Shown: positions 13,331 to 45,993 of the stretch, piece by piece
Position numbering within the stretch: the stretch's first letter is position 1
How the letters are laid out: each line of letters starts with the position of its first letter
Source of the DNA: Branchiostoma floridae
Lineage: Eukaryota; Chordata; Leptocardii; Amphioxiformes; Branchiostomatidae
Length of the DNA stretch: 64,000 nucleotides
Direction of reading: 5' to 3'
Assembly (NCBI RefSeq): GCF_000003815.2
Contig: NC_049992.1
Coordinates: forward strand, 5,891,094-5,955,093
Notes under the pieces: generated by a model
The model's database searches: none
Seen by the model: only the letters and a program-made list of their open reading frames with translations
What the model was told of the DNA's origin: nothing
Program-made: the position numbers and the translations under genes

Positions 13331-13532
13331 ATGTCCCATTTCCGAAACGGGGCCGGGCCGGGGTGTTTGCGGAAACGAAAAATAAAAGTTTCTACCAAAG
13401 AATATACACGAACTATGCTCGTGACTAATTTCTTTTAAAATTTGTGTGTTTTCTTGCCTTTCTTATCATATTTTTCGTTTCCGAAAGCTACCCGGCGCCC
13501 AGGCCCCGGGTTGGGAATTGTGACCTAAACCT
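13331..13532. mobile_element. Inverted-repeat element upstream of NPHP4 exon 1a
   Basis: Left arm CATTTCCGAAACGGGGCCGG and TGCGGAAACGAAAAA; right arm TTTTTCGTTTCCGAAAG and CCCCGGGTTGGGAATTGTGA, inverted copies of about 60 bp. Related to the nested element at 1009-1190. It ends about 70 bp before the exon 1a start codon. Confidence 0.65.
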
Positions 13533-13601
13533 TACCCTGGGTACGAGAGTCCTGGGTACGAGAGCCGTGAGCGTCTGTTGTTGGGAGGGTAACCGAATTC
13601 C

Positions 13602-13612
13602 AAAATGGCGGC
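13602..13612 (+). promoter_or_regulatory. YY1-type site overlapping the NPHP4 1a start codon
   Basis: AAAATGGCGGC fits the strong downstream YY1 element (AAnATGGCGGC) found over the start codon of many TATA-less housekeeping genes. The ATG inside it is the predicted start of exon 1a. Function is inferred from the motif only. Confidence 0.5.
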
Positions 13613-13766
13613 GCACAGGACCAAATCTCGCAGTTGGGATGAAATATCTGCCCGTACCATCCGCTCTGTCGTTCCACCGTCACGCACAAGGGTGGAAGAG
13701 ACGGAAGATAAAGAGTCCTCCGCCTTTCAGATTAATTTACAGTCTGTGGACGGCGTTTTCCGGCCG
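13605..13766 (+). CDS. NPHP4: NPHP4 exon 1a (N-terminus A)
   Basis: ATG 13605 to donor GCCG|GTAAGT, 162 bp, phase 0. Encodes 54 residues including VVPPSRTR and [19 protein letters not shown]. The pattern VPP…R…KES-AFQ-L…DG…R resembles the human N-terminus closely, and joining straight to exon 3 gives the same spacing before QLRVSLYD as in human. This is the best candidate for the conserved start. Confidence 0.85.
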
Positions 13767-14150
13767 GTAAGTACCGCTTGTTATTGATAAAGGGGGTGGG
13801 GGGCACAATTATTTTGCACCGCTGATATTATTATACACAAAATTGTTGATTGTAGTAAATAGATGTATATGAAGACTAAATGTTTATGTACGAAACTTAT
13901 CTATGAAATATTTAATGCCTTTTATAATAAAATATAAAAACTGAAAGCATATTTTGTAGTGATATAAAGATTCAGAACAAGCTGGTTAACTATACTGATT
14001 TTAGTGTTTTCACTGAATTATTATTTAACGTTATGAATGATAACAGTTCGATATGCTTGTGTCTAGAAGTATCATGTACATTCATGATTTGCTTATATGT
14101 CACGTGTAGGCTAAGGAACAGAAATTACTGACACATCACTCGTGTGCATT

Positions 14151-14206
<56 letters not shown>

Positions 14207-17200
14207 ATGCCTGTGTGCTTAAATGAAATCAGTCTAGAGCGTGTCTTACTCTGTGTGTTTGTGTGTGTGTGTTTCTACATTTTTGGCTAAGCACATCTGG
14301 TCACCCCTACTAGTAAGTTACTTTTTGTCTTGTACTCATAAATAGACCATGCAACTGAATACAATCGACACACCCACTACAGTAAAGTGTAACAGTGGTG
14401 TTCAAGGACTGCTAAACCGAAGACGCCTAACGGCTTAAGCCTTTCGGCCGAACGGTTTGCACGTTCGATTTGTGATCCGGCTGCCCGGGTTCGGCGCGGG
14501 TTCGAATCCCGGGAGCCGGGGTGTTGTTTCTTTCTGTTCTTACTCGCCCCTGCCAATTTCTACAAAAGTACACTACATGTATCTAAATGGTACAGATACT
14601 AGCAGTAAACAGAAAACACTTTCCGTAAACACAAGAATATCATACTAGTAATTATGCCAATCCCGTAGCCACTTTCATGAAACATAACAATGTTAACATT
14701 TGACGGACATGCAGCCAGTACATTGGTTGGACTGCTTATTATGGCCATGCTAAAAGTATAATTGGTTGAAATGCTATAGTAGATAATTGATTCTAATCTG
14801 ACCGTATGGGGTCTTTTTGGACTCCAGGCACACATTATATATCTGCCATATCAATATTTTTTTATCGGAGAAAAAATTCCTTCTAAGAATTTGTTTGCAT
14901 ACATGTCATACATATTACAACATGTCATATAACAGTTTTTTCACCAAGTTTTGCCCAATTATTGCATATAAAAAATACTTTTGTGTTTGTTTGTTAGTTT
15001 GTGTCTGGTTCGTTGGGTCCAAAATGACCCCAGCAAATTATGCATATAATTTATTACGTTATATCAAGAAAATTCAATACAATAACAGGGATTCCTCATC
15101 ATTGCTACATGTAAATAGGAAGAAGTTATAGTTGCCTAGGAGAGTAAATCACTGTCAGGATTATTTGGAAATTAAACTATAAGTATTTTAATGTAAACCC
15201 CAGGTTTATGAAATTCTGCATAAATTATGATGATTAGAAATAATAACATATTCTAATGCAATTGCAAATGTTTCTAATTAACGAAGAAACAACATATCCA
15301 CATAATGTACAGAGTAGGAACCTACAAGAAAGATCTTTGCATAGAAAATAGACAAGAGTTACTACATATGTGTTTATATAGGCGGCAGACTATGGTGCAT
15401 AATTTAACTTTTACGTAGTATATTTGTTAGTTTTCACAAACATTCTTTCTTTTCTTATAAGATAACATGGTTATGCTGTCAGTATAATTGTAGCATCAAC
15501 ATAATTGTTGAGAAATTGAAGATTTTTAGAAAAAAAGATGGTTTCTCCTTAATTTTCTGCATAAATTATGATAATGAGTCTTGATAACTGGTACCAAAAC
15601 TTGTCAAAGATATTTTTCAAATGCACAAAAAAATCCTGTGAAGAATTTTAGTTATTGAAATCTTTTGAATCCGATGAAATTTAGAAAAGAATTGTTTGAA
15701 GATTATTGCATTTTGCTTGGACATTGGACCCACATCTATAAAGAATTATTCTCCTTAACAGATAATATTCTTTTTACTGTAAAGGTTTTGTACAAAAAAG
15801 TGTACACTGTACTAATTAATACTAGTAGGTACAGTCATGATTATGTCATATTCACCCTCCCACACTGGGTTGGCTCTCGCTGTAATAATATCAACCCTGC
15901 CTAAGTTCCAGAAAAATGGTATAAGGGGCGTGACCACTAACCAACTGGCAGCCATTCAGAGAAATGCTGTTGTGTTATTCAAAGGTACTATAGAAGGTAC
16001 CTTTGTTATTAATATTCAAGAGCAAGATAACAGTACTGTGATAATGTTTCACAGTTTTCTCAGCGTCCAGATTTGTTTATAAAAAAATTATAGGGTATAG
16101 TGGTACCAAATTTAAAATTTGTCAGTTCTGCGGGTAGAGAGCAGTCACGGTTCTAGTGAATACCCGCCAAGCATAGAAATGTACGTACAAAGAAACTCTT
16201 ATCATCACGCAAAAATAAACAGATCTTGTGCACACCCCACCATAGGCTGCTTATTAATTATATTCACTAAAGCAAGGTGCCCCTAATACAGGTTTATCTG
16301 GGGCTGGAAAGGCAGGGTTGATATCGTAAGGCATTGTTGTGAGAGTCAACCCTTGTGTGGGAGGGCGGTCATATTACAAGTACACGCATGTGTGCAGTAC
16401 AGATTTCCGTGTCTGTCAATATTTTCCAAGTCCTACTACAGACAAACAATCAGCTTAGCCCTTCAATTGAGCCTTAGAAAGAGTGAAAAGGGCGCTCAGT
16501 CTTTTGTAAGAAGATTACAGTTGTCCTTGACTGAAAATAGAACAAATACTCAAGGTTAGAAAAAAAAACATCCTTAAATTGCCTCTAATAGAAAGCTTCT
16601 TGAAAGCAAGTTACAGTAACCATTTGTTGAATGTGCTGCTAACTTGGCAAACAAAAATATTTTTGAAATGGTTTGTGCTGAATATGGCGAAGGCTACTCT
16701 TAACTGACTTAAGTCTTGTTGGCATCCTTACAAAAGGCTAAGTTCACAAACATCAGCTTTAGGCAATGAAGCAGTTGTCATTGAATTATGGATAAAGAAG
16801 AATGGACCAAGCAAAGTCCCTTCCCTGAAGGTTAAAACAGACTCAAAACAGAGGAAAATTGTGCATTGACCTGCAGCTGGGAGGAACCTACGATATACGT
16901 ACCTGACCATTCTTTGTAAATAAGCTCCGATTTTGCACTGGAAAGAATTTCCGTAGATTTTGTACGAAAGGAAACGAATCGTGCAATCCTTCTCTTAGAG
17001 TTGATAGGATCAAAAGGATGTCTGCTGACTATAAAAACAGAGGTCACGGCTTGAGAGTGCTTCAGTCGTGATGCCAGCAGATCTCTATGGCAACCTAGGG
17101 TTGTCGTGGTAACCAGGGACGACCCGACACAACAGCTGAATTGTGGAGAGGAGGAATTTGCATTATAATTATTGTCAAGGGCCGTTGGATGGCAGTCAGG

Positions 17201-20200
17201 AGAAAGGACAGCTTTTTCAACTCTCCAAATGTTGCATTTCTCGGCGCTCTGATTTCTTAGCTGGCTTCCTATGGATTATGACAGGTAAGCAAAGGTATTT
17301 TATATTATGATGGGATATCTAAAATATAATAGAATTTTTGATGAAATATCATTATTTATGGTAAATTTCTTAAAATCGATTCAATTTGTACTCCCATGTA
17401 TCCATTCCATTATATATAAACCTTTTTATGTTTATTTAGTGTGCCAGATATGGTGTATTTGTTTCCATCTTTACCCAGTTTATGTCTTTTTGCAATTTTC
17501 TTGGAAAATAAGCTGTGTGTTCTGTGAAATGCTAAATTGATATTCATTGAATGTAGGAATGCAACCACACAGACCAATGTTTTTGATACCCTGTCTGAAA
17601 AAGTCACAGAGGCAAGGAAAACATTGGTTATGAATTGAAAATCCTCATTTTAGGGTTGCCAATAAGCTACAAAATTGAAGATAATTTGAGCAATTTTTTT
17701 CTGAATTGTCAGTGGTAAAATTATGGGTGAGCACCCAAAATTATGCTTGCTAAAAGTGGTGCCAATCTTAGTGATTAAATTCTGTTTGAGAGCCTACCAT
17801 ATTTGTATAAGATTGTTTATTTCAATTATTACTCTTTTTCTACAAAATTGGTCAGTTCTCAAACAGAATGTAATCACTTTACACTTCTACCAATTTTTTT
17901 TATTATTTTCTTATGGAGGGAAATAATTTCTTACATGAAGAAGATTCAAGGAAATGTCCTGGAATTACTTTGCAATCTGTTTCAACACAAGAGATTGTTC
18001 TGACAGGTATATCTACGTGTCCTTGTAGAAAATTCACTCTGATAATGGGCTACAACAACAACTTTAAAGTTGAAAACCTTTAAATTTGGTATTTTAAGTG
18101 TTTGGGAAGTAACATGTACAAGCAGTCAAGCTTCAATTCTTTTTCAGACTTCAAATCTGATGTAAGAGTGCACAAAGAAAATTGGCCAAATACAGCCACA
18201 CTTTAATAGCTATGATTTATTTTTATAAACAGTGGGACTTCTACTTCTACTTTACAGTACGTTTTGTTGTTAAAATTGCTACATGTATAGCTTGCCTCAT
18301 TGAATACTCAGTCTCTTCTATTTTTATTCTCAATGTTACAAAATGACATAATCTATTTCCTAAAAGAATGATAATGATTATCCAATTTTCATTAATTTTG
18401 TTTTTTTATTAAATCAGCTAAAAATGATGTAGTGTCATCCAAAAAATGGCCTAACATCAGAATACTGGAAGTTGACAGCAAATTGATTTATAGTGTAATT
18501 ACTGTTGCAAAGCATTGTTGGATAATGACCTGTAGATAATGCCCTGTTGTTTGTAGTCCATGCATACCAACATGTTGTAAAACCTGCAATTTGGGTGCCA
18601 TGATCTTCAATTTGCCTTTATTTGTGGGTGGGAAATTTACGCCCTTCGTTACGCCCATGTGTAATAAAAAGGGCGTGACCTAATTCAACTTTCCTTTCAA
18701 TGCCAGTACACAGTTTATTCATGGTGCCCCAGACGACCCAAAAAGAGGTCAATTAGAGATACATAAATATAGGTGAGATGAACATGATCATTATGCTCTA
18801 ACATTCTCACACTGCAGGAAAAACACGGAACAAGTATGCAAGATCTAGAGGACATTCTTGGCTGTAAGACATTGCATGTCCAATGTTCTCTAAGTCATTT
18901 GGTAATTTTAGGAATGAGTAAGGATTTTCAGAGTTCTATGTGACACTGAATTTTTTCAGTGAAAAGTATTCCTGACTCATAGGCGATTTTGAAAGTCGGC
19001 GACCTACTTGCGATCAACCATTGCAATGTTTTTTTTTCTTCATCAGTTACAGACTGAGTGTAAATCCAATGGACAAGACTTCATCATTGGAATGTTAACA
19101 TGAATCATACTCGTTTTCCAACGTCCATTTTGAGGACCCACAATGGTCTCAGCCCCTCCCCTACCTGGCCGGGAAAAAGTGTTCGGATCAGCGGTGTACA
19201 TAAAAAGCCGACAAGTACGGCAAGTAGAGGCGTCAGCCATGCGGAGTTGTTGCGGGTGATACCAGCGGACTTACGGCGTACACTACACTCGGACGGACAG
19301 TCGGTGCCGCTCTGTCTTGTGTTGTGGTCAGTAGAACAGGTACCAGGAATAAGGTTACCGGACAGGAAGGTACGTATTGTTTAATTTAAGTAAACATGTT
19401 TATGAACAATGTTCTTCAAAGCTAAAAATGACATCATATAATCTAAAAGATTATAGATCTGCTTGTTGATATCCTAGTTGACAAGCTTTGTAGTCTTTCA
19501 CAGCCAAATTACAACGTACGTAGTAATATATAGTTTGGAAATAGGTTTCTGTATCAAAATGTACCTTAGACTTCCGCCATCTTTAGAATTGGGATTGTTT
19601 TTACTGTCTTGATGTCAATTCTGCCTGATGTAAAGACTGCTTGGTTTGGTTTGGTTTAATTTTGGTTCGGTTAATTCTGATTGTACAGCAACTCAGGCAA
19701 TTTCAGATCTAATGATTTTGATAATTTTTTTTACACAAAATTGCACTAGTGGCATCTATTAGTACACAATAGAGTGTTACATATGTTTAGTTGCCCAAAC
19801 CAGCTGTCCTGCATACTATAGATAATAGCAAACATTACCAGTAGTAGATAATGCATTGTGATAGATCTCATTGTAGAAAAAATTCTTACTTACAGTGTCA
19901 CAGTGGCAATTGTCAGTGTTAAATGATTGTATACAATGTAGTTGCCATATAAGGTACACCATAACAGGTGTTCATGTAGCTAACATCTGTTCATCTTATA
20001 ATGATTGTGTACCATATTTACACTTCCAGTAGTTTAAGTCCTGACAGTTGCTGCAGAGTCTGTTGAGAGCAATATACTTTCTCCCAAGTAAATGTAATGT
20101 GGCAATGCTGCATGTAATGTTCTTTCCAATAAACCTTCAAGTGTTTTGTTGCTTCATGTGTATGTGTGTTTGTATGTGTCCATGTGTGTATGTGTGTGCG

Positions 20201-23200
20201 TGTGTGCACGTGTGCATATTATGTGTGCGTGTGTGCGTTTTGAAAAGCCATATACATTTTAAGACATAGTGCATTGACCAATGTCTGTGCTATAGGGCTG
20301 ACTACTAGTACTGTAACAGTACTATGGACAAATTCATGTAGATTATACATGGTACACTTTAACAAAATGGTATATATAAGAATTTCTTCCACCTCTCAGG
20401 AAATAGACCTATCCACGCTTTACATGATTGTGTAAACATTTGAATAGCATCCAGACAAAATTAAATGTATCATGTAGAGTGTTGCTACTAACATTACTCC
20501 CCCTGTTTAGGACGTGGGTGAGTCCGGCGCCCAGCTGCAGTACCAGTTACGAGTCAGCCTGTACGATATCATGTACCACACGTTCTTCGGACGCACCTGG
20601 GTCGGGCCGGCCAGGGCGGCGAAGGTCGACAAGGCAAAGCAGAAGTACAAACTACAATATCAACAGGTAACAATTATTGTGTATAATATTAATTATACAT
20701 TCAAGTAGCTAATAAAATAGTATGGTCTTAGTCATGATAATTGCAGGTATACTGCAGGTTGGTTCATTGATTGCGCTGTCTGGTACAATCACTTCTGTAA
20801 CATATTTCTCATATTGTACAGTTATGTTGGTTTAACCCACCCAGGGCTCAAAATACCACCTGCACATGCAGGTTAGTGCAGGTAAAATTGGAGCTGTGCA
20901 GGTATTTCTGGTGTCTACCTGCACCTAACCTGTAATGGTCCATGTACTGGGTTTTATACATACTGTCCTAATAATATGATGTATAGGACTGGTGTATATG
21001 GATTGTTATTAGCTACATTGACTGTAATACCACCTATAAAGTAAAGAAAAAAAAAACAATGGTTCCTCAATAATTTTAGTATGATTCATTAATGTAACTT
21101 CCTGAATACAGAGTGGTGCAGGTAAAAGTCTCAGGTGCAGGTAATTTTCAATGTTACCTGCACCTGTGCAAGTATGCAGAAAAAAGTATTTCGAGCCCTG
21201 TCACCTCATGTCAGAATTAAAAATTACCTTGGCTTTTGGAAATAAAGCTGCACAATTTTTTTTTTTTTTTTTTTGTGTCACTGGCAAAAGTTAGTGGATT
21301 CTGCCTGAAACGTTTCCAAATCAAATCCAGTTGCTTGTCAATGAGTACATTTGGCTTATCTTATCACCTGGAGGTCTAACCTTCATCGACGTATACAAGA
21401 CTTACAAGTCATTTTTTTTCTATTTTCCAGCCGATTTATTTCCACACCTCTCTGAAGGACCCCAACATCGTGGCAGTGATAGAGGTGGTGGGTGTGCTGG
21501 ACCCTAGTCCTGGGAGTAGCCAGCCAAGAAGGCAGACGTCTTGTGGATGGTCCTTACTCCGCCTCTTCCAGAAGTCTCAGAAAATTAAAGACACAAGCGA
21601 AGGAACTCCAGATGTCAGAAAGCTGGACGTGTATCACGGATCACCGCGGGCTCTCATGTTGATGGACGATGCGATTGAAAGTAAGATGAGAGTTCGTGTA
21701 TATTACAGTCCAAAGCTATCCTTCCTACAAAATATGACCCTTGTTTTCAAATCTTCAACTTTGATTAATGTACAAAGTACAAATAACGTGTTTTGTAAAG
21801 TGAGGCAAGTAATGATTGTTAAATTATAGATTTTCACAAGCTTGTAAAGTCATTTATTGAATTGAATTTTGAATAATTTGTCATATAGTATATTCAAGTC
21901 ATTTAGTGTATTGAAGACTTGTTTTCCACCCATAACTTGTGCAAGGATGTCAGATAGCGTTCAGCCTCTGCACGTATTTTTAGAAGATCATACAGTGATG
22001 CTAGCATGATGTTTGATATGTTTGAGTGTCTCAGTTGTTTTGTCTCCCCTGTAGCAATAATGAGAATATCCAGCTTGTGTGAGGATGTCAGATAGCATTC
22101 AACTTCTGACATACTGATATCTGGAGAATAATGATTCTACAGTACATCTTGTAGCCATTATGGTGGCAATTGATATGTTTGATGTTTTTAGTTTTACTAA
22201 CTGTTGTTAATTCTCTCCCCCATAGCCAATGAGAACATCCAGCTTGTGCGATGATGTCAGATAGCATTCAGCCTCTGCACGCATTTTTAGGTGAAGATCC
22301 TATATCTTCATAGTGTACATCGGATGCCAATGCATGCGGTTTGAAAGTTGTTTTTTCTCTTCAATAGCTAATGAGAACATCCAGCTTGTGCGAGGATGTC
22401 AGATAGCGTTCAGCCTCAGCACACACCAAGCACTGGAGAAGATCCTACATCTGGTACCAGAGAACGTGCTGGTGGGAGGGAGTGACGCCATCCCAGGGAT
22501 ACAGGAGCAGAGGAGCAAGAGCAAGGAGAATGGTAAGGCAGGGCTGTGAGAAAGATATTTGAAAATGCAATGTGATTATGACGCAAATTTTGGCATCAAC
22601 CTTCCTCTCAGAGTCTTGGGTAATGCATTATTGTAGTTCAAAGGTTTCTAAATGAGTGAGTGGGTGAGTGAGATGAAAAACGAAAGAGAAAGAAAGTGAT
22701 CTCGATCCACTGGTCGTGACAGAGAATACATTACACTATGTAAAGTATTTACAGGTTCATTGTAGAAATTCCCCTAGCTAATTTCGACAAGCACAATGAA
22801 CAGCGGACCATGGCTTAACGTCCCGTCCTAAGGACTGCAACTCTTTCCATTGGCATGCATGTCAACTGAGCGATACAGCCAGAATCAACCTCACAGCTTC
22901 TAGAAGGACTGTGTATTAGGCCCCAACATCTCCAACCAGGACCTACTAGAAGCTAACGAGAAGGCCGTGGCCTGGCTGCAGTACTGGCATGGAACGCTAT
23001 GATGATGACAGCTTCTAGAGATAGAGCTACTAACCACTGGACTATGCATGCTACTGACCTATTTTTTCTTTCTTTCTTCTGAGATGTAACTCTTTGAATT
23101 TCTTGTTTTTTTCTGTAAGAGTAAACACATTTTGATTTATTCAATATGCAAGTTATGAAGTTCAAGGGATGGTTTAGATGAATGTACATCTTTCTTTGAA

Positions 23201-41200: not shown

Positions 41201-44200
41201 AACGCATTATGTAGTTGACGGACGTTGGTTTCAAATTGTGATATTTTCATAGTATTTTAGCCTGAAACAGCTGTCTGTCAACTTGATATCCCTGAATACC
41301 CCGATTTTATAAACAGTGGATAAAGATTACCCTGGAGATAAAGGTAAACTAGCATTGACAAAATAATCATTGACAAAAAGCAGTTCCTCAAGCAACTGGA
41401 TATTATAAAAAAAAGTCTTGGAAACGGTCAGATGCTTCAAGTAGCATCCACTATCTTTCGTAGAGTGACACAAGGGGGTCTGTAACAGTTGAAAAGCAGG
41501 TTTTATGTCCTAACTGGGAATTTATATCCAAAGGAGTTGAAGACAATTCAAAGGAAGACGACGTCACATTTAGTATTGACCAGGACGTCTAACCTTCATC
41601 GACATCACAAAATAATTAGATTAGATGATTGAACAATGAAGATTTTCCAATCTAAGGCAATGCCAATTTGAGTATTGAAAATTATGCTTGACTGGAAAAA
41701 CGTAATGAACAAAAGCTTGTCTATGAGACCAGCATCATACATAGTACACAAGCTTGTTGTTGTTGACGCAATCTTGTCATGTTTGTCAACAGGGTCCTTC
41801 TGATACCATGGCACCAAATCTGACAACGCAACTGATGACGGGCTACCGTCCCAGCGTGCACCACTCAAGGAACATCAAGGTGTATTTTCGCGCCGACGAC
41901 CACCGTCCCGTGTCCATCCTTACCGTAAACGTGATCCCGCAACCTCACGTGGTCGACCAGACGTTTCGCTTCTACCACCCTGAACAGTCCTTCCTGAAGA
42001 AAGCTATAAGATTACCCCCCTACCACCAGCTACAAGGTACTGGATGATTTGTTTCATAGTAAAAATATGATACAGTGGAAGCCGTTTAATTGCAATTGCA
42101 CACCCAATTTGCAATGTATTTTGTGCAATTATCTGGATGGTGCAACAATGCAAAGTTATCTAACTGGACCCCACCGGTTTGGGATTTGGGATTCTATGCA
42201 AATAACAGAAGTGTGCAATAATCTGTTGTGCAATTAACTGGCTTCTACTGTAATAATTATTGTAATAAACTGAAAATGGGGCTAATCTAATCTAAAATAC
42301 AGTTAGAACACCTTCCAGGTTGGTTGGCAGCTTTTATCTTACATATGATACTGGAGTAAGTGCTCTGAGAAGCATAATACATTGTAGGTAAATCCTGGAC
42401 AATAAAATTTATTTCCATTTCAGCACAGACGTGGAAATGTGATATATTTTTGGACAGTAATCTGCCTACCCGTATGCACGTCTTGCGATTCGGCATGACT
42501 CTATTTAATGTCCTATCTGAGGGACGGCCTTTACTGCAGTTTACGGTTACAGTACATATTTTTGAACTCATAACCTCTATGGTGACTGGACCAAACACCC
42601 TGCCATTAGGCCACACGGACACCACTATGCGTAACGTTACTTTATTTGCATTATATAGGCCGTAATGTGCCAGGTGGTTTGTTTTTCAGGTGCGGTAGTC
42701 ACGGCAGGTGGTTTCACCAGTGTCTCAGCCAGCTGCAGCGACCCCAATGTCATCTGTGAAACCAGGAAGGTCAAGGCGGGGGAGCCGCAAGACGTCTTCC
42801 TTAAAGTAGCCTGCGGCCCGTCTCCTTCTGTCAAGAAGTTCTTCGTGATCATCTACACGTGAGTCAAATTTGTCGCGCAGCTGTGCTACATTGTACTTTA
42901 TTTGTTTTGCATACCTGGTATACCGCCTAATGCCTTTACACAGTCAGGAATCTACTGTACAGTGCAAGCTGCATATCCGGACAGACTTATTGGATCCACT
43001 CACAACAGGAAGGACAAAAACACATCCCAACTTCACCCACATTCACAGATGGACAGAAAGCCACTTTCTTGAAGTTCTTAAAATTGCAGAACCCACAAAT
43101 TGTAGAAAAAGTGGGGGTTTTTGTCTTCCTCTGCTTCCCAAAAAGGAGTCAAACCCACCCGTTTGGAAATAGTCAAAACAAGGATACGAGTAGCCACCTT
43201 GTGACAATAATATGTTTAGCGCACTGTTCATTGTCACATACTTATGTATGTCTCCTATGTTTCCACCAATTTTGTACTTGCAATTAGCAAAAAAGAAGTC
43301 AACCTTTTAGAAATAGTCAAAACTAGGCTATGAGTAGCCACCTTGTTACAATAATTATGTTTAGCGCACTGTTCATTGTATGTTTCCACCATGTACTTGC
43401 AATTAGCCCCCGAGCTTGAACTAATACAAATAAACTTTGTTGATGCACACAAAACTGAATTCTTCCTTGTCCAGGGACCCTCACCAGTCGAAGCCGTGTC
43501 AGATCTGGCAGTTCTACCTCCATGCCCTACAGCGGGTGGACATCAGCTGTGTGGAGGGGCAGACAAGTCGCTTCTCTCTCATCCTGCGGGGAACCAACGC
43601 TTCTCGTCTGGTCAGGGTCTTCCCCTCCCACCCCACAGAGATACAGGTGTGTACAGAGATACAGTTGTGTTAGGTCCCACTCCACAGAGATACAGGTGTG
43701 TTAGGTCCCACTCCACAGAGATACAGGTGTGTTAGGTCCCACTCCACAGAGATACAGGTGTGTTAGGTCCCACTCCACAGAGATACAGGTGTGTTAGATT
43801 TCTTTATTTCACACTGTGTGTGTTAGGGTTTGGTATCCCGAAGGGAACCAACGCCTCCCGTCTGGTCAGGGTCTTCCCCTCCCACCCCACAGAGATACAG
43901 GTGTGTTAGGTTACTTTATACAGGTGTGTTAGGTTACTTTATACAGGTGTGTTAGGTTACTTTATACAGGTGTGTTAGGTTACTTTATACAGGTGTGTTA
44001 GGTTACTTTATACAGGTGTGTTAGGTTACTTTATTTCACAGTGTGTGTTAGGTTACTTTATTTCACAGTGTGTGTAGGTGTAACTGTATCCTGAGGGGAA
44101 CCAACGCTTCTCGTCTGGTCAGGGTCTTTCCCTCCCACCCCACAGAGATACTGGTGTGTACAGAGATACAGGTGTGTTAGGTTACTGTATTTCACTGTCT

Positions 44201-45993
44201 GTGTAGCGTTCGGTATCCTTAGGGGAACCAACGCTTCCCGACTGGTCAGGGCCTCCCCTTCCACACCACAGAGATACAGGTGTGTTAGGTTACTTCATTT
44301 CACAGTGAAAATCCTCTGAAATCCAGATATGTGACTGAGAATACAATTTGTTTTTCTTCTCCTCCTGACAGGTTTCCCCAGATACGCCTTTCATGCTGGC
44401 AGCCAACGCAGTGCACGAGGTGAACGTAGGTGTGAGACCCCTGGCCGTGGGCAGCAAGTTCCTGTACATAAATGTGGTGGACACAGAGTACCACCAGCTC
44501 ATCCGCACATGGCTCATCTGTATGCAGACCACGCAGCCGGTCATCTCAAAGGTTCGTTTGTTTGCTTGTTTACCTCGGAGTCCATGAAGATGGAGGACCT
44601 GGTACTGTTTTGAGTCTGGATGATGCAGTGGGCATACAATCATGTATCTTGAGAACCACTAGATGGATTGCGATGGTTTTGATACTAAATTTACATGTAG
44701 GTGGGGTGATCCTGACAGTGAACGTAAGATCAATTTCAGGCCTCCAGGTTTAAACTATCAAGTTGTGTTGAATCTGAATTGATCAAATAGTGGCATGTCT
44801 AGAAGACTGTTGTGCACTGGGATGCACAGCCTGGCTTTCTTGTTGGAACACTGACCAATCTCGTTTGTCCTAGCCTGGGTACCATCCTCCTCTGTACAAC
44901 TGCTGGCTCTATTTTTTTTGCAGGCTAACCATGCAAACAAGCAAAAGTATTGAGTCAGCATTTACCATATGTATACTACTGTAGCATAAACAACCCTATT
45001 GCAACAGTTACTGTAAAACAGTCTGTTGGATGTTTCTTATGGTAAATTGTTTGTTTTCTACAGGCTTTTGATCTGCAGCTGCCTATAGGAGGTGGTAAAG
45101 GCTGTAACAAGAGGATCCCGTACACCAACCCCTACATGCACAGGAAAACCTTCCTCCTCCACACCAACAGACAGGACCTGCTGCAGTTCAAGGAGAATAC
45201 GTTTGAGGTTTGTAACCCTTTTGTTTGTAGAAATAATCCAGCTCACTGTAGTCTTTTCTTCCTTACCAGTATTACCAGTATGTGCTTATTCTAAATTTAT
45301 GAAGCTGAGGGACCTAAGCACAGTGCAAAAGACGTAATATACAATACTGCAGGTTCTGATCCACATGCAACATGGAAGGAGCCCTGCTCTTTTTGATAAG
45401 TGCAGAGGGTTCTTTTACATAATCAAGGTTTGGCTGTCCGCAAACACGGGACCGCCACCAAAGCTAAGGTACTCATTTTCATCTGATGGAAGTCAGAAAA
45501 GTCAATGCTAGACATGTAAAGTGCCTTTCCTAACGGCAAAAGATCAGTGACGGTATTGTACACTGTAACAGACTTGAATTGCCCTTTCAGATTCTGTGAG
45601 TTCTATAGTTATTATTGAAACCAACCCGGTAAAATGAGATGTCCCACACTTCTGTACATTTGCCAGTTTGATTTCATAATAAAGAATTCAAATTGAACTG
45701 AAAATGTTTAGATAATACCTTCAAGTTGGTGACCTTTAAAAAAGATTGATGAGACTTTAAAATCATTGCCAGTTGCTGGTACTGTGATTTTACAAGCAGT
45801 AGCAGTTGAAAATGGTCTAAAATTACAATTATAATTATTTTTATTTCCCCAGCTTGGATCAGGTGATGTGTACACCATCGGGATGAGATTTGCTCCCAGC
45901 CAGCAGCAGGGCACAACAGAGATCCTTATCTTCATCAATGATGAGGATGACAAGAATGAAGAGACGTTTTGTATCAAGGCAACCTACAGCTGA
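13605..45993 (+). CDS. NPHP4: Nephrocystin-4, ciliary transition-zone protein
   Basis: Thirty shared exons (20511-45993) plus two alternative 5' ends. Every shared junction has AG and GT and matching phase. The product is about 1453 residues from exon 1a or 1476 from exon 1b; human nephrocystin-4 has 1426. Landmarks match the vertebrate protein throughout: [93 protein letters not shown] and the acidic end [10 protein letters not shown]. In animals NPHP4 works with NPHP1 and RPGRIP1L at the base of the cilium, gating entry to the axoneme; loss causes nephronophthisis in humans. Stop TGA 45991-45993; AATAAA at 46543-46548 is the best polyadenylation signal. Confidence 0.97.
13767..15847. other. 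NPHP4 intron after exon 1a, proximal part
   Basis: AT-rich intron. Contains a (GT)n microsatellite at 14153-14206 with a shorter block near 14250-14272, and the tRNA-like sequence near 14440. From 14540 to 15847 I see no exon or clear repeat. Confidence 0.6.
14436..14522 (+). ncRNA. tRNA-like sequence (pseudogene or SINE head)
   Basis: GGTTCGAATCC at about 14508 is a perfect RNA polymerase III B box, and CGGCCGAACGG about 50 bp upstream resembles an A box. The T-arm pairs CGGG with CCCG around TTCGAAT. I could not build a clean 7-bp acceptor stem or a sound anticodon arm, so this is more likely a tRNA-derived relic than a working tRNA gene. Confidence 0.35.
15848..16374. mobile_element. Inverted-repeat element, about 530 bp
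   Basis: Left arm ATATTCACCCTCCCACAC…ATATCAACCCTGCCT and right arm AGGCAGGGTTGATAT…GTGTGGGAGGGCGGTCATAT are inverted copies of about 60 bp. Interior has no transposase. In the intron following NPHP4 exon 1a. Confidence 0.6.
17081..17113 (+). promoter_or_regulatory. Two X-box-like RFX sites before NPHP4 exon 1b
   Basis: ATCTCTATGGCAAC (17081-17094) meets all 14 positions of the nematode X-box consensus RYYNYYWTRRNRAC; GTTGTCGTGGTAAC (17100-17113) meets 13 of 14. They stand about 160-190 bp before the exon 1b ATG, the distance usual for RFX control of ciliary genes. Found by eye; no conservation test. Confidence 0.55.
17271..17284 (+). CDS. NPHP4: NPHP4 exon 1b (short alternative first coding exon)
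   Basis: ATG at 17271, four codons (MDYD) plus two bases, then the strong donor ACAG|GTAAGC, phase 2. It joins 19153 in the only phase that keeps that exon open. The short length makes it hard to prove from sequence alone, but the donor, the phase fit and the X-boxes upstream support it. Confidence 0.55.
17285..19152. other. NPHP4 intron after exon 1b
   Basis: AT-rich intron; AAATTGG and poly-T stretches are common. No coding exon, RNA or clear repeat was recognised. TTTTTTTTTCTTCATCAG at 19029-19046 is a strong-looking acceptor, but frames starting there stop within about 60 bp. Confidence 0.5.
19153..19369 (+). CDS. NPHP4: NPHP4 exon 2b (alternative N-terminus B)
   Basis: Acceptor GGTCTCAG before 19153, donor GGAAG|GTACGT at 19369; 217 bp, phase 2 in and 0 out, joining exon 3. 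It encodes about 72 residues, with [19 protein letters not shown] and [17 protein letters not shown]. The latter resembles the exon 1a strand [13 protein letters not shown], so the two starts may supply alternative first strands of the same domain. Exon 1a cannot join it (phase 0 against 2), so it needs exon 1b or another start. Confidence 0.6.
19370..20510. other. NPHP4 intron 2
   Basis: Mostly AT-rich single-copy-looking sequence. A short (TG)n-like tract sits at about 20155-20245. No exon seen. Confidence 0.5.
20511..26364 (+). CDS. NPHP4: NPHP4 exons 3-9: N-terminal region
   Basis: Exons 20511-20666, 21431-21680, 22368-22532, 23272-23408, 24856-24912, 25345-25481 and 26226-26364, with outgoing phases 0, 1, 1, 0, 0, 2, 0. 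Encoded landmarks: [96 protein letters not shown] and [10 protein letters not shown]. In human NPHP4 this N-terminal region carries a C2-like fold; that assignment is from family knowledge. Confidence 0.95.
20842..21200. mobile_element. hAT-like non-autonomous element
   Basis: Ends CAGGGCTCAAAATAC and GTATTTCGAGCCCTG are inverted; this terminal form is typical of hAT superfamily elements. Subterminal ACCTGCAC / GTGCAGGT motifs are repeated at both ends, as expected for transposase binding. No clean 8-bp target duplication remains. A matching end occurs at 27739-27785. Confidence 0.7.
21925..22300 (+). pseudogene. Three degenerate upstream copies of NPHP4 exon 5
   Basis: Segments around 21930-21990, 22047-22105 and 22217-22300 repeat the start of exon 5 (AATGAGAACATCCAGCTTGT, GATGTCAGATAGC). 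Copies two and three also keep an acceptor-like AG before the match. Each is broken in the exon frame: TGA in place of CGA, TGA in place of GGA, and a TAG after 'ACGTATTTT'. Spacing from copy to copy is about 140-170 bp. Confidence 0.85.
22895..23003 (+). mobile_element. LINE 3' coding end
   Basis: Reads [20 protein letters not shown] then [12 protein letters not shown] and stop: the closing segment of the LINE type seen on the other strand at 11950-12690. It lies in NPHP4 intron 5 and has no function in that gene that I can see. Confidence 0.7.
23409..25344. other. NPHP4 introns 6 and 7
   Basis: Introns either side of the 57-bp exon 24856-24912. AT-rich; no repeat, RNA or extra exon recognised. 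Confidence 0.5.
25560..25676. mobile_element. Small fold-back element
   Basis: GAAGTTTTTCAACTGTCATA at the left pairs with the complement of the right end (CACAGTTGAAAAACTTC), continuing through ACAAAATTTT. Arms about 35 bp, total 117 bp, in NPHP4 intron 8. Confidence 0.6.
26501..26722. mobile_element. MITE family B, copy 3
   Basis: The best preserved copy: GGTATCTCACTGCACTTGGG at the left, CCCCAAGTGCAGTGAGATACC at the right, 222 bp, in NPHP4 intron 9. A strong acceptor-like CTTCTCCCTACAG stands directly before it, so exonisation is conceivable but there is no matching open frame of note. Confidence 0.85.
26723..27845. other. Distal part of NPHP4 intron 9
   Basis: No exon seen. At 27739-27785 the sequence CAGGGCTCGAAATAC followed by CTGCACTAGTGCAGGTA is a lone end of the hAT-like family found at 20842. 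Confidence 0.55.
27846..32248 (+). CDS. NPHP4: NPHP4 exons 10-15: central region
   Basis: Exons 27846-28058, 28607-28654, 29045-29187, 30348-30492, 31357-31433 and 32060-32248, outgoing phases 0, 0, 2, 0, 2, 2. The first encodes the VLWVSWCPF strand region; the next three encode a low-complexity Pro/Ser linker as in human; exon 14 has [11 protein letters not shown] and exon 15 ends in [13 protein letters not shown]. Exon 14 must start after TTTACAGAG (31357), since using the earlier AG gives an immediate stop. Confidence 0.93.
29375..30205. repeat. Minisatellite in NPHP4 intron 12, about 40-bp unit
   Basis: Around 18 diverged copies of a unit reading GTGTTAGTGTGAATGTCTAT and CAGCACCAAGGAAAGGGACA. 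It shares the core CAGCACCAAGGGACAG…GTGTGAATGT with the arrays in introns 18 and 22. Confidence 0.9.
30528..30900 (+). repeat. Interspersed repeat family A, copy 3
   Basis: The most complete copy: GGTACCGGTACAGAAAATTC, repeated GGTCCAGGTCTGG units, ACTCAAAACAATGG, CACTGGCGTTTTAAAATCC and AAAACTTGGTAGAAATGACT. In NPHP4 intron 13, 40 bp past the exon 13 donor. Confidence 0.75.
31232..31331. other. Assembly gap (100 N) close to NPHP4 exon 14
   Basis: Placeholder gap ending 25 bp before the exon 14 start. The polypyrimidine tract survives, so the exon itself is whole. Confidence 0.97.
32249..33127. other. NPHP4 intron 15
   Basis: Begins with three diverged copies of a unit of about 60 bp with the core TTATTGTTATGGTTTGAG (32255-32420). 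The rest shows no exon, RNA or repeat that I recognise. Confidence 0.5.
33128..35711 (+). CDS. NPHP4: NPHP4 exons 16-20: second conserved block
   Basis: Exons 33128-33226, 33731-33845, 34336-34479, 35319-35420 and 35597-35711, outgoing phases 2, 0, 0, 0, 1. Encodes [34 protein letters not shown] then [15 protein letters not shown], and [14 protein letters not shown]. The [13 protein letters not shown] run is nearly identical to vertebrate NPHP4 and is the clearest single identifier in the window; the block is C2-like by family knowledge. Confidence 0.97.
34630..35125. repeat. Minisatellite in NPHP4 intron 18, about 37-bp unit
   Basis: About a dozen copies of a unit reading GTGTCAGTGTGAATGTCATT and CAGCACCAGGGACAGCA. 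Related core to the intron 12 array. Frames across it are artefacts. Confidence 0.9.
36410..39531 (+). CDS. NPHP4: NPHP4 exons 21-24: helical linker region
   Basis: Exons 36410-36496, 37081-37184, 38558-38668 and 39430-39531, outgoing phases 1, 0, 0, 0. A Ser/Thr/Pro stretch is followed by charged helical sequence: [38 protein letters not shown] and [19 protein letters not shown]. It corresponds to the human segment around LADVDSELAAML and RDLQVIAAYRERTK. Confidence 0.93.
37296..37900. repeat. Minisatellite in NPHP4 intron 22, 39-bp unit
   Basis: About 15 copies of CTCACAAACATACCTGTCCT plus TGGTGCTGAATACTTTCCA. Being 39 bp it keeps frames open on both strands. Read in reverse it contains TTCAGCACCAAGGACAGGTA, the core of the intron 12 and 18 arrays. 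Confidence 0.92.
37901..39429. other. Remainder of NPHP4 introns 22 and 23
   Basis: AT-rich, with stretches such as TTATTTATTTATCTTG near 39025 that could be retrotransposon tails, but nothing clear enough to class. Exon 38558-38668 lies within. Confidence 0.45.
39707..39794. repeat. Short inverted repeat in NPHP4 intron 24
   Basis: GGTCAGAATGAATCGACACC at the left faces GTTTCGATTAATTCTGACC at the right, 88 bp in all, with small GTGTCGAT/ATTGACACCGG pairings inside. Probably a tiny MITE. Confidence 0.5.
40288..45993 (+). CDS. NPHP4: NPHP4 exons 25-32: C-terminal Ig/MSP-like region
   Basis: Exons 40288-40412, 40947-41136, 41793-42036, 42690-42858, 43475-43646, 44372-44551, 45064-45207 and 45853-45993, outgoing phases 2, 0, 1, 2, 0, 0, 0, stop. 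Encodes [117 protein letters not shown] and a last strand ending in [19 protein letters not shown]. The repeated 'hydrophobic strand – N-P/H-P – strand' layout resembles Ig-like or ASH/MSP-type modules of ciliary proteins. In human this part is needed for transition-zone partners. Confidence 0.97.
42073..42250. mobile_element. TA-flanked inverted-repeat element (Tc1/mariner or pogo type), copy 1
   Basis: Ends CAGTGGAAGCCGTTTAATTG and CAATTAACTGGCTTCTACTG are inverted and both flanked by TA, the target duplication of this transposon class. 178 bp, NPHP4 intron 27. A second copy is at 56568-56741. Confidence 0.8.
43142..43410. repeat. Tandem dimer in NPHP4 intron 28
   Basis: Two copies, about 145 and 118 bp, share GAAATAGTCAAAAC, GAGTAGCCACCTTGT, TTTAGCGCACTGTTCATTGT and TGTACTTGCAATTAGC. 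The second ends about 65 bp before exon 29. Confidence 0.8.
43647..44290. repeat. Repeats built from the NPHP4 exon 29 donor region
   Basis: Directly after the exon 29 donor come about five copies of a 31-bp unit (CCACAGAGATACAGGTGTGT + TAGGTCCCACT), then about six copies of a 23-bp unit (TACAGGTGTGTTAGGTTACT + TTA). Three longer partial copies of the exon 29 end (ACCAACGC…CTGGTCAGGG) sit at about 43838-43910, 44089-44175 and 44215-44285. Most units carry ATACAG|GTGTGT, a copy of the true splice donor. Confidence 0.9.
45376..45565. repeat. Dispersed repeat also seen near 49146-49320
   Basis: The two regions share the order 'AAACRCGGGACC', 'CTACTC…TCATCT', 'AAGTGCCTTTCC' and 'AAGATC-GT-AC'. 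Diverged, class unknown; in NPHP4 intron 31. Confidence 0.4.

Follow-up and report, generated by a model that had tools for sequence, protein, structure and literature searches.

Nephrocystin-4 (NPHP4) is a protein of the ciliary transition zone, and its gene lies on the plus strand, at about 13605-45987, of a 64,000-nucleotide (nt) window of the amphioxus Branchiostoma floridae genome (RefSeq assembly GCF_000003815.2, contig NC_049992.1, positions 5,891,094 to 5,955,093, forward strand). Coordinates below are those of this window. Core-promoter motifs, X-box-like sites and an unusually strong donor in the first intron suggest a second promoter there, with a first exon ending at 17284, and we rate its existence slightly above even. 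The broader proposal, that this promoter feeds a spliced 5' end into NPHP4, falls a little short of an even chance. A new coding N-terminus from a second intronic exon is possible but doubtful, as codon evidence opposes it and homology lends it no support. The motifs, splice-site scores, reading frames and the CpG-rich block (rich in cytosine-guanine dinucleotides) described below are direct observations on the DNA.

The canonical and the alternative start models share one exon:

13605-13766, plus strand: exon 1a, the canonical first coding exon; ATG start, 54 codons, phase 0, ending CCG|GTAAGT
20511-20666, plus strand: exon 3 of NPHP4, used in either start model; starts in phase 0, acceptor 8.1 bits, donor 6.9 bits

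The gene was identified by similarity to human NPHP4, using in all comparisons a hand-written query sequence. Twenty-six plus-strand stretches matched at E < 0.2, two of them repeat copies, and 24 stretches are colinear with the human protein (best E 1.2e-17); this colinear similarity along the protein identifies the gene as the NPHP4 orthologue, as the first-pass annotation had named it. The start that it gave, together with the ATG, the 54 codons and the phase-0 end of exon 1a, is confirmed: exon 1a scores 52 against human residues 1-52, a value matched by none of 2000 shuffles, and on sequence grounds it is the ordinary NPHP4 start. Within it, tblastn aligns human residues 4-40 at 37.5% identity (that stretch by itself has E 1.2), and exon 3 matches residues 52-83 (E 5.4e-4). 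Joined to exon 3 through a donor of 11.0 bits, exon 1a gives an open N-terminus with an in-frame junction. The intron between them (intron 1) measures 6744 nt, compared with 176-1481 nt for the remaining 22 modelled introns.

In Pfam, the encoded N-terminus has sub-threshold C2-like matches only (IcmF_C, E 0.03-0.057, 14.0-14.9 bits, below the cut-off of 26.7), which do not establish a C2-type domain there; a sequence search of PDB with exons 1a, 3 and 4 returned no match. A KIF13B paper names a second C2 domain of NPHP4 (PMC5290278), and the wording of that passage implies a first. A YY1-like site (AAAATGGCGGC) at 13602 lies across the start codon of exon 1a; the window has three such sites in all. 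A weaker X-box match at 13580 ranks 10th in the window (score 10.14). Directly upstream, 13357-13496 carries inverted arms of 28 nt that are 86% complementary; a related stretch lies at 1098-1185 (75%), and the element looks like a small mobile sequence, similar to a miniature inverted-repeat transposable element, beside the canonical promoter.

A candidate promoter inside intron 1

The putative second promoter consists of these features:

17030-17069, plus strand: candidate second core promoter; TATA box TATAAAAA at 17030, initiator TCAGTC (A at 17064), spacing 34 nt
17081-17094 (weak) and 17100-17113 (strong), plus strand: two RFX/X-box-like sites, scored with a hand-written RFX matrix

Taken alone, the pairing of TATA box and initiator is near chance, with four pairs on the plus strand and none on the minus strand, against an average of 2.2 for the two strands together in 60 simulations. 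The X-box-like site at 17100 is far rarer. Its score of 16.57 is the second highest in the window, and the expected number of sites scoring at least 16.5 is 0.0675 per 64 kb and 0.007 for intron 1. Its neighbour at 17081 (10.24, ninth in the window) is ordinary, with 12 sites scoring at least 10 compared with 8.2 expected; a pair like the two together appeared in none of 400 simulations. The plus strand has a single instance of the full combination (TATA box, initiator, a donor of at least 11 bits within 400 nt and an X-box scoring 16 or more), and the minus strand has none. None of 300 simulated 64-kb strands contained it, and relaxing the cut-offs to donor 9 and X-box 12 left the count at 0/300. 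The top-scoring X-box of the window, a perfect palindrome (GTTGCCATGGCAAC) at 1355-1368, lies near minus-strand open reading frames with weak C-type lectin matches. Forkhead sites were discarded as promoter evidence, the word RTAAAYA being found 96 times in the window.

Published consensus sequences give a more sober picture. The site at 17100 fits the restricted fly X-box consensus GYTRYYN(1-3)RRHRAC (PMC2375033) and is one base off GTNRCC(N0-3)RGYAAC (PMC5752003). With a two-base spacer, the fly consensus has 8 matches in the window compared with 3.0 expected, and 2 of 100 shuffles reach 8. In amphioxus, a figure legend of the cap analysis of gene expression (CAGE) study plots YY1 at ubiquitous promoters and TATA at embryonic- and tissue-specific ones, and it lists RFX1-2-4-7 among the motifs of gene modules common to amphioxus and zebrafish (PMC6292497). 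The C. elegans NPHP4 homologue stands 25th in a list for ciliated neurons (PMC551537), and the passages of that paper drawn on here give no X-box for it.

Several points count against a promoter at this place. The motifs were selected after inspection and the matrices written by hand. Over all three spacers, the fly consensus has 12 matches in the window, close to the approximately 9.7 expected with strands counted apart. The fly study also states that RFX control cannot be predicted from an upstream X-box alone (PMC2375033), and a mouse testis study reports that Nphp4 expression drops without Rfx2, apparently not as a direct target (PMC4498915).

Splice sites and reading frames downstream of the candidate second start

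The first-pass annotation had proposed that NPHP4 has two alternative N-termini, one encoded by exon 1a and the other by a 14-nt exon 1b (17271-17284) followed by exon 2b (19153-19369). Much of its geometry stands. Exon 1b reads ATGGATTATGACAG|GTAAGC and exon 2b ends AAG|GTACGT in phase 0, both as described; exon 1a with exon 3 and exons 1b and 2b with exon 3 are open throughout, and each start joins exon 3 in frame. The statement that exon 1a cannot join exon 2b also holds, as splicing exon 1a to 2b at 19153 or at 19047 runs into a stop in both cases. The frames and phases of the proposed alternative N-terminus are thus sound, and its weakest part is the acceptor at 19153 and with it the 5' edge of 2b. 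We propose the following revision:

17064-17284, plus strand: candidate alternative first exon (1b as revised); largely untranslated, contains the 14-nt piece 17271-17284, donor 11.6 bits
19047-19369, plus strand: candidate alternative second exon (revised 2b); acceptor at 19047 or 19053 instead of 19153, donor at 19369
19100-19369, plus strand: possible alternative N-terminal coding stretch; 90 codons, open, phase 0 into exon 3

The acceptor at 19153 scores 3.5 bits, ranking 79th among the 378 AGs of intron 1 and below every one of the 23 acceptors of the modelled introns (4.0-12.4 bits). By comparison, the acceptor at 19047 reaches 8.8 bits, third of the 378, and that at 19053 reaches 6.8 bits; a phase-0 acceptor within 2b, at 19302, was rejected at -22 bits. 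From 19047 or 19053, the frame of the ATG at 17271 runs into a stop. However, an ATG at 19100 (gttaacATGA) lies in the 2b frame itself and opens 90 residues, so the ATG at 17271 is dispensable. Six ATGs follow 17064 within the candidate first exon, and the first four are closed by stops ahead of the donor.

The donor at 17284 (CAG|GTAAGC, 11.6 bits) is the best of the 481 GTs in intron 1, and the window holds nine donors of at least 11.6 bits on the plus strand and one on the minus strand. The quality of the donor at 19369 is ordinary: the minus strand has 31 such sites per 64 kb, or about three per length of intron 1, and intron 1 has three. The best AG of intron 1, at 20400, is followed by stops in all three frames when exon 3 is extended from there, so single splice-site scores can mislead.

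Coding potential of exon 2b and competing readings

Exon 2b was scored with a codon model trained on the 24 NPHP4 exon stretches, which ranked the true frame first in 23 of them and second in the other. The evidence opposes a coding role at several levels. The codon score of 2b is -0.31, compared with a lowest value of -0.16 among the 24 stretches, and its exon frame ranks third of six against its own composition and second of six against an intron background. The frame started at ATG 19100 ranks third on both backgrounds. GC content by codon position is flat in 2b (0.57/0.54/0.56), whereas all 24 exon stretches have more GC at the third position than at the second. Short upstream frames precede ATG 19100. 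In codon score, frame rank and periodicity, 2b thus does not show the coding constraint of the second exon of an alternative pair. We note that exon 1a is also nearly flat (0.54/0.52/0.57), while its frame ranks first by the codon model; because 1a is a coding exon supported by homology, the flat periodicity of 2b is less damaging than it first appears.

The open frame itself is less easily dismissed. In composition-matched simulations, the frame that 2b needs stays open with a frequency of 0.029, and any plus-strand frame with 0.084. We also counted stretches that run from an ATG into a phase-0 donor, requiring 80 codons or more and a donor of at least 9 bits. Intron 1 has one, and none turned up in 500 block shuffles; with a donor of at least 5 bits the shuffles gave 18 of 500. 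These thresholds were fixed after the values were known. At the stricter setting, the whole 64 kb holds two such stretches on the plus strand and one on the minus strand.

Exon 2b is also rich in CpG, with 16 in 217 nt, a count reached by none of 151 windows from the introns after exon 3. A GC-rich block is best fitted at 19132-19374 (two-unit support: start 19102-19152, end 19309-19381), and its end agrees with the donor at 19369, while its start precedes 19153. This richness does not prove an exon, because a tRNA-like piece of intron 1, 14401-14600, is equally rich (17 CpG in 200 nt). That piece contains GGTTCGAATCC, which we take to be a B-box-like word, and is possibly a short interspersed nuclear element; an ARAGORN scan for tRNAs and an Rfam scan reported nothing, including at 14401-14600.

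The first-pass annotation had further read exons 1a and 2b as alternative versions of the first strand of the N-terminal domain. This idea fails, as the similarity of 2b to either counterpart is at chance. Among 2000 shuffles, 1434 equalled or exceeded its score of 21 against exon 1a, as did 87 of 240 chance open reading frames (window frames of 60 amino acids or more); for its score of 20 against human residues 1-52, the counts were 1627 in 2000 shuffles and 125 among the 240 frames. At the DNA level, 155 of 500 shuffles matched 1a as well as 2b does. The strand-prone tail of 2b was rejected as evidence for an alternative first strand, since tails as strand-prone occur in 87 of the 240 chance frames and 585 of 5000 shuffles. 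These comparisons argue against 2b and 1a being homologous, duplicated, mutually exclusive exon versions. What survives of the claim of two NPHP4 starts is a second 5' end in intron 1, supported by the TATA box, the initiator, the X-box-like sites and the best donor of the intron.

The strongest competing account, which we consider plausible though well below even, is that NPHP4 has a single N-terminus. Exon 2b would then be a non-coding CpG-rich element, regulatory or unmethylated, with an open frame by chance, and the motifs near 17.1 kb would at most form an RFX-bound enhancer of the normal promoter. The codon score, frame rank and flat GC profile of 2b fit this account, as do its chance-level similarity, the donor at 19369 at chance expectation and the weak acceptor at 19153. 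It does not readily explain why the best donor of intron 1 follows a TATA box, an initiator and an X-box, or why an ATG-to-donor frame so rare in shuffles lies at 2b, and the flatness of the coding exon 1a blunts one of its arguments.

Alternatively, exons 1b and 2b could be transcribed yet untranslated or unproductive, with 2b serving as a leader exon or, joined to 1a, bringing in a premature stop. The protein would then start further down, for example at 20571, the first in-frame methionine of exon 3. The stops met by 1a in 2b (from 19153 or 19047) and by the 1b ATG from 19047 or 19053 agree with this, and so does codon usage in 2b unlike that of NPHP4. However, an untranslated leader has no need of the open ATG 19100 frame in phase with exon 3, and we regard this account as unlikely. 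It is very unlikely that 2b belongs to a mobile element or another transcript within intron 1: it shares its CpG richness with the tRNA-like piece and has a minus-strand open frame of 91 amino acids, but neither strand matched a Pfam family at E 1, and the window contained no second copy at E 0.01, so 2b was rejected as a repeat within it. Least credible is the exact first-pass model, in which ATG 17271 is spliced at 19153 to give an alternative first strand; it is open, in frame and served by a strong donor, but its acceptor is weaker than all those modelled and its strand similarity is at chance.

Possible split control of NPHP4 and other features of the window

The reading that we prefer, a second promoter with a spliced 5' end, would work as follows. 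A broad promoter of the YY1 type would drive exon 1a and give canonical NPHP4. A second promoter in intron 1, at about 17.03-17.12 kb and built of a TATA box and X-box, would be active in tissue where RFX is active, that is, in ciliated tissue, and would produce the mostly untranslated exon 17064-17284. Its splicing partner would be 19047-19369 (or 19053-19369), followed by exon 3. If translation began at ATG 19100, a head of 90 unrelated residues would take the place of the 54 canonical ones, and the protein would be unchanged from exon 3 on. We infer the transcription, splicing, tissue and translation of the second start from sequence features. The complete scheme of split control, in which the NPHP4 of ciliated cells would carry the unrelated 90-residue head in place of its usual head and first strand, we hold to be rather unlikely.

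If the scheme were true, a single gene with two starts could give different tissues different ciliary gates, and RFX control would be tied in a testable way, via the X-box promoter, to an altered NPHP4 protein. If the promoter alone is real, it would be an ordinary alternative promoter, and such promoters are nothing unusual. In both cases, the canonical start at 13605 is located. The cilium gene SPAG16 is reported to have two promoters and two major isoforms (PMC5282894). As with such alternative first exons, the NPHP4 locus offers two possible starts whose donors can both be joined in frame to a common exon. In contrast to usual X-box (RFX) ciliary promoters, the site at 17100 sits in intron 1, about 3.5 kb downstream of the canonical start. 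What this locus adds to the known gene is the extra candidate 5' end in intron 1; titles and abstract openings in the NPHP4, ciliary and amphioxus-promoter literature yielded no description of two NPHP4 N-termini or a second 5' end.

Elsewhere in NPHP4, the intron after the exon modelled at 43475-43646 repeats the 3' end of that exon, with GGAACCAACGC at 43590, 43844, 44097 and 44224. The same region (43590-44300) has 13 copies of ATACAGGTGTGT, the donor of this exon, partly in 31-nt and 23-nt tandem arrays, so that numerous copies of a single 5' splice site would compete there. Beyond the gene, a minus-strand open reading frame at 50640-51137 matches the TPR family TPR_12 (E 1.2e-5) without reaching the curated cut-off, and presumably resembles ZMYND12.

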